In this document: piece after piece, positions 9,125-53,948 of the stretch | Position numbering within the stretch: position 1 is the stretch's first letter | Layout of the letters: every line of letters begins with the position of its first letter | Source of the DNA: Desulfohalovibrio reitneri | Lineage (GTDB): Bacteria > Desulfobacterota > Desulfovibrionia > Desulfovibrionales > Desulfovibrionaceae | Direction: 5' to 3' | Assembly: GCF_000711295.1 (NCBI RefSeq) | Contig: NZ_JOMJ01000004.1 | Coordinates: 434,001 to 498,000 of the forward strand | DNA: 64,000 bases | Program-made: the position numbers and the translations under genes | The notes under the pieces: model-generated | Databases searched by the model: none | Told to the model about the DNA's origin: nothing | The model's input: the letters and a program-made list of their open reading frames with translations, nothing else

Positions 9125-9541
9125 TCAGAGCATGGTCTCGTCCACCTTTTCGATGGTCAGTCCCCACAACTCCGAGAGCACGTCCTGCATCTCGCCGGGC
9201 CCGAGGCGGACGGGGCCATCCTCGGTTTCCTTGAATATTTGCAACTCCTGTTCCATAAACGGGTACTCGAACACGAGGCGATGCTCGAAGCGCCGCTCAA
9301 GTTCCTGGCGGATTTCGTCCACCACCGGATTTTCCGCGCCGGCCACCAGCAGGTTGTCGATGATTTCCCTGGCCACTTTCTCCACCAGGGCGCGGCGTTT
9401 GGCTTCGCGGGAAATGCTGATCTGGTCGTCCACAGGCGCACCCCGCATCTGCCGCTGGAAACGGGCCAGGCGACGGGCGTTCACGAGCTGCTTGCCGTAG
9501 GTGCGCAGCATGTGTTTGACCTGATACGGGTTGACCAGCAT
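9125..9541 (-). CDS. DVU0524-type FlgM-associated protein
   Basis: 138 residues, soluble and helix-rich, with no signal peptide. The sequence opens MLVNPYQVKHMLRTYGKQLV and continues with charged helices (SREAKRRALVEKVAREIIDN). From memory, a family of this size and position directly upstream of flgM in Desulfovibrio is named after D. vulgaris DVU0524; its biochemical role is not established. It is separated from flgM by about 107 bases that contain the sigma-28-like site, so flgM may also be read from an independent promoter. I infer a role in regulating or chaperoning late flagellar gene expression from context only. Confidence 0.7.
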   Translation of the reverse strand: MLVNPYQVKHMLRTYGKQLVNARRLARFQRQMRGAPVDDQISISREAKRRALVEKVAREIIDNLLVAGAENPVVDEIRQELERRFEHRLVFEYPFMEQELQIFKETEDGPVRLGPGEMQDVLSELWGLTIEKVDETML

Positions 9542-48959: not shown

Positions 48960-51479
48960 ATGGCCTCAGATTCAGAAACGCCAGTCACCAAGCGCTCACT
49001 CTACTCCTGGGTCAAGCAGAGCGACATGCGCCTGCAGATCCTTTTGCTGGTTGTCATCATCATCACCGTGGGAGCGCGGGTGCTTCCGCTTGAGCTGCAG
49101 AAGCTCATTATCAACCAGGCCATCTCCCAGCGCAAGATCGACCTGCTCTTCATGTACTGCGGCTACTACCTGGCGGCCGTGGTGCTCGCCGGCGGGCTGA
49201 AATACGTCATCAACATCATCCAAACCATGCTCGGCCAGCGGGCCCTGGCGCAGATTCGCCGCTCCCTGTACGCCCACGTGCTCACCCTTCCCCTGTCCTA
49301 CTTCCGCAAGACGCAGGCGGGCATGGTTGTTTCCTCCCTGGTCACGGAAATCGCCCCGGCCGGCGAGTTCGTGGGCATGGCCCTGGCCGTGCCGGTGACA
49401 AACCTCCTGACGCTTTTCGCCTTCGCCGGATACCTGTTCTACCTCAACTGGGTCATGGCCTGCGTCACCCTGGCCATCTATCCCATCATCGTCATCATCG
49501 TGCCCAAGCTGCAGCGGCGCACCAACCGGGCCAACAAGAAGCGGGTGGACGCCACCCGCGAGATGTCCTCCAAAGTGGCCGAAGCGGTTACGGGCGTGCA
49601 CGAAATCCACGCCAACGGCGCCTACTCCATCGAGAACGCCAAGTTCGGCGAACTGGTGGACAAGCTGATGCGCATCCGCATCGTCTGGAATCTCTACAAG
49701 CTCGGGGTCAAGGCGCTGAACAACTTCATCGTCAACCTCGCGCCCTTCGTGCTCTTCCTGGTGGGCGGCTACCTCATCATCCAGGGCCAGTTCAACCTGG
49801 GCGCGCTGGTGGCCTTCCTCTCGGCCCAGGAGAAGCTCTTCGAGCCCTGGAAGGAACTCATGGAGTTCTACCAAGTCTACCAGGACTCCACCGTGCGCTA
49901 CTCCCGCACCATGGAGTACTTCGACTTCGCCCCGGAGCACCGGCTGGTGGTCGAGGGGCGCGACCCACTGCGGTTGGAACCCCGGGTCGAAATCGAGAAC
50001 ATGGGCTTCACCGTGGAGGGGAACATCCAGCTTCTGCGCAACATAAACCTGGAGCTGGGACCCGGGGAGCATCTTGCGCTGGTGGGCTTCTCCGGCAGCG
50101 GCAAGTCCACCCTGGCCCTGTGCCTTGGGCAACTCTACAAGTACACCACAGGCCACGTGAAGCTGGGCGGCGAGGAGGTGGCCGACCTGTCCAAACAGGA
50201 CATTGTGGAAAACATCGGCTTCGTCTCCCAGGCGCCGTTCATTTTCACCGGCACAATTCGCGAGAATCTGCTCTACGCCTGCCGGGCCGCACTGCACGGG
50301 GCGGAGCCGGTGGAGGGCGGGAACATGCCCACCCTGGACGACCAGATCGCCGTGCTGCAGCAGTCGGGCATCTTCGTGGATGTGTTGCGCTTCGGCCTCA
50401 ACGCGGTGCTGGACGACGACGGGCAGCACGACCTGCGCCAGCGCATCGTCCGGGTGCGGGCCAGCTTCCAGAAGGAGTTCGGGGACGATCTGGCCGAATA
50501 CGTGGAGTTCTTCAACCCGGATTCCTACCTGCGCCACTCCAGCGTGGCCGCCAACCTCACCTTCGGCAGCCCCAACCTGGAGGAGTGGAGGACGGAGAAC
50601 CTGCCGTCCAATCACAGGTTCCGCGAGTTTCTCGACGAAATGCAACTGACCAGGCCGCTTTTGACCCTGGGCGCGGAGATCACGCGCTCCACCGTGGACA
50701 TCCTGGGCAACATGCCCAGGGACGCAGTTTTCTTCGAGCAAAGCCCCATCCCGGCGGACGAGTTCGAGGAGTACGTCGACCTGGCCCGCCGACTGGAGCA
50801 GCACAAGGTGGGCGAGCTGCGCCGGGAAGAACGGGAGAAGCTGCTGCGGCTGGCCCTCAATTTCATTCCCGGCCGTCACAAGATGGTCGGCTTGCCGCAG
50901 GTGCTCGAGGAGATGCTCCTGGAGGCCAGGAGCAGATTCCGCCGGCGCATCGAGAAGGACAACCCGGAGGCTTTCTCCTTCTACAGGGCCGACGAGTACA
51001 TCTTCTCCCAGACAATCCTGGACAATATTCTCTTCGGCAAGGCCAAGAGCGAATCCCCGCAGGCGCAGGAGAAGATTTCCCAGTCCATCATCCAGCTCCT
51101 CATCGAGGAGGACCTGCTGGAGTCCATTGTGGGCATCGGACTGGAGTTCGACGTGGGAAGCAAGGGGGACAAGCTCTCCGGCGGCCAGCGCCAGAAGCTG
51201 GCCATCGCCCGTTGCTTCCTCAAGGACCCCAGGCTGCTTCTCATGGACGAGGCCACCAGCGCCTTGGACAACAAGTCCCAGACCAGGGTGCAAAACGTTC
51301 TGGAAAGCCACTTCCGGGGCCGCTCCACGCTCATTGCGGTGGTGCACCGCCTTGACATCATCAAGAACTACGACAAGGTGGCTGTAATGAAGGCGGGCAA
51401 GATCATAGAGATCGGGGGCTACCAGGAACTCATGGACAAGAAGGGGGCATTGCATGAGCTCGTCCACGGAAAACAATGA
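48960..51479 (+). CDS. ABC exporter with an ATPase domain split by a ~240-residue insertion
   Basis: 839 residues versus about 580 for a usual half-transporter. About 20-315: six-helix exporter domain. About 340-440: first part of the ATPase with Walker A GFSGSGKST (376-384) and Q-loop Gln424 (GFVSQAPFIFTGTIRENLLY). About 441-680: an acidic, helical insertion. About 681-839: signature LSGGQ (739-743), Walker B LLLMDEA (759-765) and switch His near 796. The stretch after the Q-loop occurs three times in degraded form: IFTGTIRENLLYA (428-440), SSVAANLTFGSP (527-538) and IFSQTILDNILFGK (681-694). All catalytic motifs are present once. The next gene overlaps its end by 26 bases. Confidence 0.85.
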   Translation: MASDSETPVTKRSLYSWVKQSDMRLQILLLVVIIITVGARVLPLELQKLIINQAISQRKIDLLFMYCGYYLAAVVLAGGLKYVINIIQTMLGQRALAQIRRSLYAHVLTLPLSYFRKTQAGMVVSSLVTEIAPAGEFVGMALAVPVTNLLTLFAFAGYLFYLNWVMACVTLAIYPIIVIIVPKLQRRTNRANKKRVDATREMSSKVAEAVTGVHEIHANGAYSIENAKFGELVDKLMRIRIVWNLYKLGVKALNNFIVNLAPFVLFLVGGYLIIQGQFNLGALVAFLSAQEKLFEPWKELMEFYQVYQDSTVRYSRTMEYFDFAPEHRLVVEGRDPLRLEPRVEIENMGFTVEGNIQLLRNINLELGPGEHLALVGFSGSGKSTLALCLGQLYKYTTGHVKLGGEEVADLSKQDIVENIGFVSQAPFIFTGTIRENLLYACRAALHGAEPVEGGNMPTLDDQIAVLQQSGIFVDVLRFGLNAVLDDDGQHDLRQRIVRVRASFQKEFGDDLAEYVEFFNPDSYLRHSSVAANLTFGSPNLEEWRTENLPSNHRFREFLDEMQLTRPLLTLGAEITRSTVDILGNMPRDAVFFEQSPIPADEFEEYVDLARRLEQHKVGELRREEREKLLRLALNFIPGRHKMVGLPQVLEEMLLEARSRFRRRIEKDNPEAFSFYRADEYIFSQTILDNILFGKAKSESPQAQEKISQSIIQLLIEEDLLESIVGIGLEFDVGSKGDKLSGGQRQKLAIARCFLKDPRLLLMDEATSALDNKSQTRVQNVLESHFRGRSTLIAVVHRLDIIKNYDKVAVMKAGKIIEIGGYQELMDKKGALHELVHGKQ

Positions 51480-51993
51480 GGCCGAGGCCTGCCGGAGCCC
51501 GAACTGCGAGTTCCAGCAGAATCTCGACAACCTCCGCCACATTTCCATTTTCTCCAGCCTGCCGCTGGAGTCGCTGAAGGTGCTGGCCTATTTAGCGGTG
51601 CGGGAAACGTACCACGCAGGAGACCTGCTCTTCCACCAGGGCGAGTCGGACGGCCAGGCCTTCTCGATCCTCTCCGGGCGGGCCACGCTGCTGCGCGAGC
51701 ATAACGGCGTGGAAACGGAGCTGAATTCCTACGAGGCCGGCGACTTCCTGGGAGGGCTGTGCCTGCTCGGCGAAATGCGCCGCCTCTTTTCGCTGCGCGC
51801 GGATATCGAGGTGGAGGCACTGGTGTTGACGCGCGAAAAGTTCGTCAAGACCGTGGAGCAGTTCCCTGACGTCCTGCCGCGCATCATGGAGGCCGTGGTG
51901 GACGAGGTGCGCAAGTGGGAAAAACGGTTTTTCTTCGAGCACGCCGAAAGTTGCGACGCCTGCGTGCGCAAGGTCGGCGTGAGCCTGGTATGA
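51454..51993 (+). CDS. Cyclic-nucleotide-binding-like domain protein
   Basis: 179 residues. About 25-150 form a cNMP-binding beta barrel (RHISIFSSLPLESLKVLAYL, then AGDLLFHQGESDGQAFSILS and SYEAGDFLGGLCLLGEMRR). The phosphate-binding cassette lacks the clear FGE..AL..R consensus, so ligand binding is uncertain. There is no DNA-binding domain; instead the tail has a Cys pair (ESCDACVRKVG), and another Cys pair lies near the N terminus (CRSPNCEF). The start lies inside the ABC gene (26-base overlap), so it is probably a regulatory partner of the transporter. Confidence 0.75.
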   Translation: MSSSTENNEAEACRSPNCEFQQNLDNLRHISIFSSLPLESLKVLAYLAVRETYHAGDLLFHQGESDGQAFSILSGRATLLREHNGVETELNSYEAGDFLGGLCLLGEMRRLFSLRADIEVEALVLTREKFVKTVEQFPDVLPRIMEAVVDEVRKWEKRFFFEHAESCDACVRKVGVSLV

Positions 51994-52004
51994 AGGAGGA
52001 GGCC

Positions 52005-52619
52005 ATGCGAAAGCCCCTTATTCTTTTCTTCCTGCTGCTGGCATTCTCGCCGGTGTGCGCCCTTGCCGCGGACAACGGGCCGCGGACCATCGCCGGCATC
52101 ACCCTCGGCGAGGACATTTCCACAGCCAAGGACAAGGTCAACATGGCCTCGGCTTCCAGCACTTGGTCCCACCCCTACCTCACCCGGGTGGAGGTGCCGG
52201 ACTTGCCGGGCTTCAAGTGGGGCTACATCACGTACGGCAACTGCGCCAAGCCCGGGCGTATCGTGCGTATCAAGCTCAAGTACGAGAACGAGTCCCTGGA
52301 TTTCTTCAAGCGGTTGCTGGCTGCCTACAAGAAACGGTTCGGCGGCAGCCCGCAATGGCGCGGCAACGCATTCGGCACCTTGCGAACCTGGAAGTGGGGC
52401 TTCGATGACGGCGATATGGGTGACATCAGCCTGATCCTGCAGCACTACTCCGGGGACGACGATACGTATTCCGACGGCAACACCGTGCGCCTGGCCGCGC
52501 GAGACCGCATGGTCGAGGAGCGGGAGTGCTGGCTGAAGAAGCAGAAGGAAGCGGGCGGCCGCGGGGACCATGAGGCCGGGGAATGGACCGGCGACATCGA
52601 GGACCTCCTGCCCCGGTAG
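52005..52619 (+). CDS. Exported protein of unknown function
   Basis: 204 residues. A clear signal peptide (about 1-21, PLILFFLLLAFSPVCALA) predicts periplasmic location. The mature part has one GITLGEDISTAKDKVNM repeat-like start often seen in small periplasmic proteins, a single Cys in the middle (YGNCAKPGRI), an aromatic-rich core (NAFGTLRTWKWGFDDGD), and an acidic end. I do not recognise the family. The start has a strong ribosome site (GGAGGAGG) and lies 12 bases after the cNMP-domain gene, so it belongs to the same operon. Confidence 0.7.
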   Translation: MRKPLILFFLLLAFSPVCALAADNGPRTIAGITLGEDISTAKDKVNMASASSTWSHPYLTRVEVPDLPGFKWGYITYGNCAKPGRIVRIKLKYENESLDFFKRLLAAYKKRFGGSPQWRGNAFGTLRTWKWGFDDGDMGDISLILQHYSGDDDTYSDGNTVRLAARDRMVEERECWLKKQKEAGGRGDHEAGEWTGDIEDLLPR

Positions 52620-52625
52620 CCGGAA

Positions 52626-53054
52626 ATGGACGAGTTCGTCTTCACCCTGGAAAACCGCCTCTCCGAGTTGGAGACGCTCAGGCACAGGCTGGAGGAGTTC
52701 GCGGCCATGCACGGCTTGACCTGCTCCTGCCTGTTCCGGGTCAATCTCGCCCTGGACGAGGTGGTGACGAACATCGTCAGCTACGGCTTCGAGGAGGAGG
52801 GCGGACACCTCGTCGAGGTGCGCCTGCGTCTGGAGGGGGGCGTCCTCACGGTGGAGATACGGGACGACGCCCCGCCTTTCGATCCCACCACGGCTCCGAT
52901 GCCCAAGCTGGAGCTGCCCCCGGAGGATCGCCCCGTGGGGGGGCTGGGCCTGCACCTGGTGCGCAACGTGATGGATGGCGTGGAATACGTCCGGCGCGAC
53001 GGAATCAACGTGCTGATACTGACCAAGACACTCAGCGAGGAAGGGAGTTCGTAA
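52626..53054 (+). CDS. RsbW/SpoIIAB-like anti-sigma serine kinase
   Basis: 142 residues with a GHKL-type ATPase fold: N box VNLALDEVVTNIVSYGFEEE, G1 VEIRDDAPPFDP and G2 GGLGLHLVRNVMDGVEY. Such kinases bind and phosphorylate STAS antagonists, and some bind sigma factors. Its stop overlaps the start of a STAS gene (TAATG), making a classic partner pair. No sigma factor or PP2C phosphatase gene is adjacent, so the regulated target is unknown. Confidence 0.85.
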   Translation: MDEFVFTLENRLSELETLRHRLEEFAAMHGLTCSCLFRVNLALDEVVTNIVSYGFEEEGGHLVEVRLRLEGGVLTVEIRDDAPPFDPTTAPMPKLELPPEDRPVGGLGLHLVRNVMDGVEYVRRDGINVLILTKTLSEEGSS

Positions 53055-53389
53055 TGCAGGTCAACGAGTCCACTCAAGGGGACGTGGCCGTCCTGGCCGT
53101 CTCGGGCAGGCTGGATTCCAACACGGCCCCGGAGTTCGAAAAGCAGCTCATGGGCATGATAAAGGACGGCAAGACCAGAATCGTGCTGGACTTCGGCCCC
53201 CTGGAGTATATCTCCAGCGCCGGGCTGCGGGTGCTGCTCAAGGCCACGCGGGAACTGAAGAACAGCGACGGCAAGCTGGTCATCTGCTCGGTCAAGGACT
53301 ACATCCAGGAGGTATTCGACCTCTCCGGCTTCTCCAGCGTATTCCCCATGGCGACAGACACCGAGGCGGCCATGGAAAAGTTCGACTAG
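53054..53389 (+). CDS. STAS-domain anti-sigma factor antagonist
   Basis: 111 residues, SpoIIAA/RsbV-like. It has VAVLAVSGRLDSNTAPEFEK and the phospho-acceptor loop LDFGPLEYISSAGLRVLLKA, with Ser54/Ser55 in the usual place. It would be inactivated by phosphorylation through the RsbW-like kinase encoded just upstream. It is the last gene of the ABC-transporter operon. Confidence 0.9.
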   Translation: MQVNESTQGDVAVLAVSGRLDSNTAPEFEKQLMGMIKDGKTRIVLDFGPLEYISSAGLRVLLKATRELKNSDGKLVICSVKDYIQEVFDLSGFSSVFPMATDTEAAMEKFD

Positions 53390-53519: not shown

Positions 53520-53948
53520 CTAGCGGCTTATGTCCACCACGTCGTAATAGATGATGCCCAGCACGGCGCTCCAGCCAACGCCGTGGAAGAGGATGTTGCC
53601 GGTGGCGTCCAGGGAGGTCTCGATGGTGTTGAGCACGGCGCTGATGAGGAATACCGAGCTGGCCAGCAGCACAACGGCCAGCAGGTGGCAGGCCCAGTAC
53701 ATGGGCGCGTTCTTTTGCTCGCGGTAGCTGATGGATGTCCACATCTGCATCATGGTGGCCCAGATGATGGGGATGGCCACGAAGAATAGCAGCAGGTTGT
53801 TCTCGCCGGGCAGCCTGAAATCGAGATGGAACTCGAAGTACCAGGTCCCAACGATGAAGATGAGTAGATCCCTGACCAGGACGAACAGGGGCATGCGGTT
53901 GCCCCCGGACGACCTGGGGGACTCGTTCGCTCCGGGTTTACGGCCCAT
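53520..53948 (-). CDS. Small four-helix membrane protein
   Basis: 142 residues. About four hydrophobic segments are visible (LFVLVRDLLIFIVGTWYFEF, LLLFFVAIPIIWATMMQMW, HLLAVVLLASSVFLISAVL and VGWSAVLGIIYYDVV). No family recognised. It starts 8 bases after the apgM stop with GAGG upstream, so it is the second gene of that transcript. A methionine 18 codons later could also be the start. Confidence 0.65.
   Translation of the reverse strand: MGRKPGANESPRSSGGNRMPLFVLVRDLLIFIVGTWYFEFHLDFRLPGENNLLLFFVAIPIIWATMMQMWTSISYREQKNAPMYWACHLLAVVLLASSVFLISAVLNTIETSLDATGNILFHGVGWSAVLGIIYYDVVDISR

Follow-up and report, generated by a model that had tools for sequence, protein, structure and literature searches.

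A Desulfohalovibrio reitneri ABC exporter with an apparently triplicated Q-loop-to-signature segment and an adjoining cNMP-binding-type gene

The window analysed here is a 64,000-nucleotide stretch of contig NZ_JOMJ01000004.1 of Desulfohalovibrio reitneri. An ABC exporter gene from its open reading frame list occupies nt 48960–51479 on the plus strand, as do all features of the exporter described below, and encodes 839 residues that could be aligned with 68 homologues over more than 700 residues. The transmembrane domain (residues 28–294, nt 49041–49841) matches PF00664 with an E value of 1.5e-31, so the protein carries the ABC_membrane domain of a type IV half-transporter. PF00005 matches the NBD in two separate stretches. 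Walker A, GFSGSGKS, lies at residues 376–383 (nt 50085–50108), the signature LSGGQ at residues 739–743 (nt 51174–51188), and Walker B, LLLMDE, at residues 759–764 (nt 51234–51251). K382 of Walker A, the Q-loop Q424, LSGGQ, D763/E764 and H796 are all intact, in keeping with the preliminary description of this DNA, which had judged the catalytic motifs undamaged.

Matches of NCBIfam exporter models to the protein are likewise split into two stretches. For the best stretch shown, the MsbA model ends at residue 501, and the CydC and CydD models begin at 676–678. MsbA (TIGR02203) is the highest-scoring NCBIfam model, at 326.7 bits, far under its cut-off of 602. The window exporter shares the order of transmembrane domain and NBD with MsbA and other type IV exporters (PF00664 followed by PF00005). 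They have one Q-loop-to-signature segment, whereas the window exporter has three and a cNMP-type partner.

The distance from Q424 to S740 is 316 residues in the window exporter and 57 in an ordinary exporter, L100, an excess of about 260 residues. The preliminary description had put the two spacings at about 240 and about 70; the kind of difference stands, and the exact figures do not. An ordinary-length, single helical subdomain is therefore not what this protein has. The insert is present in all 68 full-length homologues (L098, whose match was too short, was left out before counting), which answers the question of conservation raised earlier, and the spacing varies from 313 to 356 across the 69 family sequences.

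The insert and its borders can be divided into three modules. R1 (residues 415–511, nt 50202–50492) holds the true Q-loop with Q424, helices, and a degenerate equivalent of the signature helix with Arg 500. R2 (residues 512–667, nt 50493–50960) is an extra, decayed helical module that has neither the Gln nor LSGGQ and is about 60 residues longer than the other two. R3 (residues 672–755, nt 50973–51224) has lost the Gln and kept the true signature. The Q-loop Gln is thus found in R1 only and LSGGQ in R3 only. The two echoes of the Q-loop region that had been pointed out are where they were placed, SSVAANLTFG at 527–536 and SQTILDNILFG at 683–693. Each module has one Asn after its Q-loop-like strand (N436, N532 and N689) and one Arg in its signature helix or the equivalent (R500, R657 and R751), and all six positions are invariant in 76 of 76 sequences. 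We interpret the region as a row of three folded helical modules, of which R2 contains about 60 additional residues.

The modules were compared as profiles built from the alignment of the window protein and its 68 homologues, with the segments R1 (412–517), R2core (512–610) and R3 (664–770). In hhalign, R2core matched R3 at 96.9% (E 1.8e-10, score 57.2; best of 200 column shuffles, 22.7), R1 matched R3 at 93.9% (E 1.6e-7, score 43.2; best shuffle of 200, 24.5), and R1 matched R2core at 84.5% (E 7e-6, score 33.8; best shuffle of 200, 21.2). The real score was reached by none of 200 column shuffles in each of six profile comparisons. The degenerate tail of R1 (475–517) matched the tail of R2 (628–674) at 85.4% with E 5.9e-6, and at 56.5% with E 1.1e-4 when the segment bounds were different. 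Pairs in which a non-repeat segment took part, and which had no residues in common, did not exceed 1.2%, apart from the N-part against the C-part of the NBD at 9.4%; the residue-sharing pairs R2-R2b, R2b-R3, R3-NBDC and TMDb-TMDc were set aside, and beyond the shared part R2b did not match R3 (0.3%).

The same segments were compared with ordinary exporters, in a profile of 12 sequences from 17 candidates; the other five (L009, L103, L109, L110 and L112) were not recovered by the motif filter. R1 matched the ordinary Q-loop-to-Walker B profile at 98.2% (E 5e-14), R2core matched at 86.8% (E 4.3e-6), and R3 at 99.9% (E 1.5e-31). The transmembrane controls did not exceed 0.6%, and the tail of R2 alone did not match this profile (0.7%). 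At the level of sequence profiles, these comparisons show the Q-loop-to-signature segment to be present three times in the window exporter. We read the copied unit as the whole segment, more than the tail of the Q-loop, because the signature helix or its equivalent, with an invariant Arg, is found in every copy. The duplication of the helical subdomain that had been proposed earlier is upheld by the matches among the copies and by that of R2 to ordinary exporters, with weaker support from the structural comparison of the insert model described below; the signature-helix equivalents in each copy carry the reading further than that proposal.

A full-length structure model from 10 sequences had a pLDDT of 77.4 and a pTM of 0.65, with confidence below 50 at residues 515–542, 667–679 and 692–699 among others, that is, around the echoes. 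Its NBD aligned with the TAP1 NBD over 248 of 251 residues at 1.9 Å and Z 30.9. Thus the model places a complete, ordinary NBD core fold beside the insert. The insert was also modelled in isolation (residues 441–702, 6 sequences, pLDDT 79.5, pTM 0.66), and here the echoes of R2 and R3 were both predicted as strand, helix, strand. A Foldseek search with the insert model had no hit at E 0.001 or below. In a VIA comparison with the 956 chains ranked highest by Foldseek, 30 reached Z 2. The first six of these 30 rows are ABC exporters (TAP chain B, TAP chain A and IrtAB chain A), the best being TAP chain B with Z 4.8 over 73 residues at 3.1 Å, between residues 519 and 663 of the window exporter; the next row is unrelated, at Z 3.3. 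Since these Z values are low, the match of the modelled insert to ABC NBDs is support for the duplication, not proof.

Pfam gave no match to the insert alone. A PDB profile search with the insert returned three sequences with a best E value of 0.27, of which two are ABCB19 entries and one is an unrelated enzyme; the R3 echo matched the Q-loop regions in both NBDs of the ABCB19 entries. An unrelated known domain within the insert, which the preliminary description had named as part of the grounds for giving up the duplication, did not appear with significance in Pfam, the PDB profile search, Foldseek or VIA.

Directly downstream lies a gene for a cNMP-binding-type partner of 179 residues (nt 51454–51993, plus strand; PF00027, E 2.2e-14). 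Its first ATG precedes the stop of the exporter gene, and its PF00027 score of 53.6 bits is above the cut-off of 27.5. TIGR03896 (cyc_nuc_ocin) scores below its cut-off of 161.05 bits, at 15.3 for the window partner and 40 for L056. A cNMP-binding-type gene follows the exporter directly on the same strand in 60 of the 68 homologous loci, by a profile count that supersedes an earlier tblastn count of 23 out of 26. Of the eight others, L048 has no downstream DNA, and seven have the insert and no partner gene, namely L050 and the six loci from genus g203 (L080, L082, L083, L085, L087 and L089). The search covered about 2.5 kb downstream of the partner-less loci, and 6.8 kb for L050. In the genome of L050 a partner adjoins the second paralog, L053, and the six g203 genomes have only weak matches elsewhere, at E 1.8e-6 or worse, in longer frames. 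The flanks of two Methylobacterium members likewise hold no partner. Three exporters, those of Ruegeria (L114), Azospirillum (L115) and Sulfitobacter (L117), carry a PF00027 domain as a C-terminal fusion. These fusions and the adjacency in two phyla suggest that exporter and partner work together, and they do not indicate the site of contact.

Classical binders of cAMP and cGMP have a Glu and an Arg in the phosphate-binding cassette. The cassette of the window partner reads GGLCLLGEMRRLF, in which the Arg is retained and the Glu is replaced by Gly, so that it departs from the classical pattern. Among 65 domains compared, a set that omits the L081 partner found only in the later profile count, 8 keep both residues: seven of nine alphaproteobacterial domains and one of the 56 others (L049). 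As the Glu is missing from the cassette of the window partner, the ligand may be something other than cAMP or cGMP, and in the window lineage it is probably not classical cAMP, judging from these residues. The partner of L053 keeps the Glu and not the Arg.

The phylum sample of 297 genomes, which includes the window's own, yielded 20 with the insert, and the family sample of 199, which includes it too, yielded 73; thus most sampled genomes do not have it. Named relatives include Desulfatibacillum, the source of L001, as well as Halodesulfovibrio and a Desulfosoma MAG. Plasmid records with the insert numbered 245 when the window insert was the query and 263 with a Rhizobium segment, the latter mostly from Rhizobium (144) and Sinorhizobium (80); others include Ruegeria, Sulfitobacter, Azospirillum and Methylobacterium. 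A scan of viral contigs found no relative. The insert was not found in 199 genomes from the phylum of G485 or in 149 from that of G487, absences that are weak, as neither set had a positive control. Second insert-bearing paralogs (L048, L047, L051 and L053) are seen in genomes G135, G276, G161 and G088. The insert is the mark of a family with members in Thermodesulfobacteriota and alphaproteobacteria; among open-licence PubMed Central papers, a description of this family was not recognised.

The alphaproteobacterial members have a different NBD. The eleven examined (L056–L059 and L114–L120), all reached through the plasmid collection, include two near copies, L056 and L059, that are 98% identical, and one partial frame, L120. 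In 11 of 11, other residues (or, once, a gap at E764) take the place of K382, Q424, S740, G741, E764 and H796, all six of which are kept in 65 of 65 other members; G742 is retained in 3 of the 11. An alignment-free pattern check detected Walker A, LSGGQ and Walker B in none of the eleven, and in the other members Walker A in 65 of 65, LSGGQ in 65 of 65 and Walker B in 63 of 65. The window protein and 64 other members outside the alphaproteobacteria have an intact Walker A (K382 in 65 of 65 against 0 of 11), Q-loop, signature, Walker B and H-switch. The six Asn and Arg positions of the modules are unchanged in all eleven alphaproteobacterial proteins.

In a tree of 66 rows made with the insert left out, which omits 19 of the 76 family rows including L059 and L120, eight of the nine members with dead ATPase motifs form one clade (99) beside the Thermodesulfobacteriota clade. 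L119 sits on a branch of 6.85; it is very divergent and may be a decaying gene. Support is weak (24) for the branch between the nine outgroup exporters and the insert-bearing rows as a whole. A second exporter half was not annotated in the flanks of the eight annotated loci, whose tables are partly incomplete. The ABC ATPase gene beside the Azospirillum member, of 589 residues, was considered as such a half and rejected: it has importer-type domains, with two ABC_tran stretches, an oligo_HPY tail and no ABC_membrane domain. Because this branch lost the tested ATPase motifs and kept the modules and usually a cNMP-type domain, the conserved job of the modules is probably structural or regulatory and not catalytic.

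We consider the following model rather probable. A tandem triplication inside the NBD of a type IV, MsbA/P-glycoprotein-like exporter would have copied the segment that begins with the Q-loop strand and ends with the signature helix. In the window organism two half-exporters, by analogy a homodimer, would dimerise and hydrolyse ATP in the normal way, and the extra helical modules would form a platform on the NBD where the small downstream partner docks, tying transport to a signalling ligand. That the modules are a docking and coupling platform for a sensor-type partner is the most likely use for them, given that adjacency to the partner is conserved, that fusions occur, and that the modules persist where the ATP chemistry is gone. 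The seven loci with the insert and without a partner gene count against docking. They also favour an alternative that we find doubtful, in which the copies are true copies, the insert stabilises the NBD or mediates oligomerisation, and the partner works at another place, the transmembrane domain for instance, or regulates genes; the C-terminal fusions in three alphaproteobacteria and the adjacency in two phyla, which suggest joint work, speak against it.

Two other explanations concern the origin of the insert. The extra copies could be remnants of whole NBDs fused in tandem, the Walker A halves of which were later lost. R2 and R3 begin at a Q-loop-like strand, as fragments of an NBD could, yet only a few residues separate each signature-helix equivalent from the next Q-loop-like strand, which leaves no sign of a Walker A half, and the overall spacing stays within the 313–356 residues noted above in all 69 sequences; we regard such an origin as unlikely. 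It is far less credible that the insert is an unrelated helical domain with convergent echoes. The lack of a Pfam match for the insert alone and the low fold-search scores would fit such a domain; the shuffles that never reached the real score in any of the six comparisons, the match of R2 to ordinary exporters and the ABC NBDs in the best structural rows do not.

A bolder reading of the alphaproteobacterial branch, which we regard as quite unlikely, goes further. There the exporter may no longer use ATP, and the triplicated modules would hold the NBD pair as a scaffold moved by the fused or adjacent cNMP domain, giving a cyclic-nucleotide-gated, ATP-independent channel, flippase or receptor with the fold of an ABC exporter. 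The reciprocal pattern, in which rhizobia combine dead ATP sites with an intact cassette and nearly all of the Thermodesulfobacteriota members compared combine live ATP sites with a degraded one, would then be an exchange of the driving ligand.

An ABC NBD is generally regarded as having a single helical subdomain, through which ATP is coupled to transport. A family with three subdomains, one branch of which has lost the ATP chemistry and retained all three, separates the mechanical role of the subdomain from catalysis, and coupling becomes testable. A sensor-type domain on an exporter, separate or fused, also opens regulation by small ligands to direct study. Insertions between the Walker A/Q-loop half and the signature half of an ABC ATPase are known in SMC/Rad50 and UvrA, where they are coiled coils or other modules; in contrast, the insertion of the window exporter consists of copies of the host segment. 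HetC resembles the window system as an ABC exporter working with a CRP-like ligand domain: the available text of its study reports that the cNMP-type domain is required in vivo and that it binds ppGpp in vitro (PMC10986499). As described there, that domain is N-terminal and accompanied by a C39 peptidase, whereas the insert family has a separate downstream gene or a C-terminal fusion. A C39 peptidase domain is not among the Pfam matches of the window exporter up to E 1. Loss of catalytic residues in ABC exporters is known in the form of one degenerate nucleotide site, according to the available text of PMC7756269; the alphaproteobacterial members examined differ in having lost every tested NBD motif.

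An envelope lipid or glycan is our guess for the substrate, from the resemblance to MsbA and the neighbouring glycosyltransferases in some loci. Glycosyltransferase genes lie upstream in Rhizobium L056 (several), Sulfitobacter L117 (several) and L001, and not generally. Ten upstream neighbours in Thermodesulfobacteriota loci were picked mechanically as the longest nearby open reading frame; one is a glycosyltransferase (L001) and three have no Pfam match, so we rejected the idea that the exporter generally belongs to a glycan-export operon. The plasmid of the Rhizobium locus carries an O-antigen biosynthesis gene, pRL110056, which the available text of a rhizosphere study gives as needed for root colonisation (PMC11103875). 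In Rhizobium sp. CC-CFT758, an adenylate/guanylate cyclase gene (nt 9183–11405 of L120, minus strand) is found near the cNMP-type partner.

Several other genes follow the partner in the window. A putative secreted protein with no Pfam match is encoded at nt 51996–52619 (plus strand), and relatives of it occur near the module in L001, L037, L051 and L053. On the minus strand, nt 53520–53948 encode a putative membrane protein of 142 residues, with only sub-threshold Pfam matches and none in NCBIfam. Between these two lie an RsbW-like HATPase_c_2 gene (PF13581, nt 52626–53054, plus strand) and a STAS gene (PF01740, about nt 53057–53389, plus strand), which may form a partner-switching regulator tied to the exporter-partner module. 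The HATPase gene recurs shortly after the partner gene in L001, L036, L037 and L041, and in L050 it lies downstream of the exporter gene.
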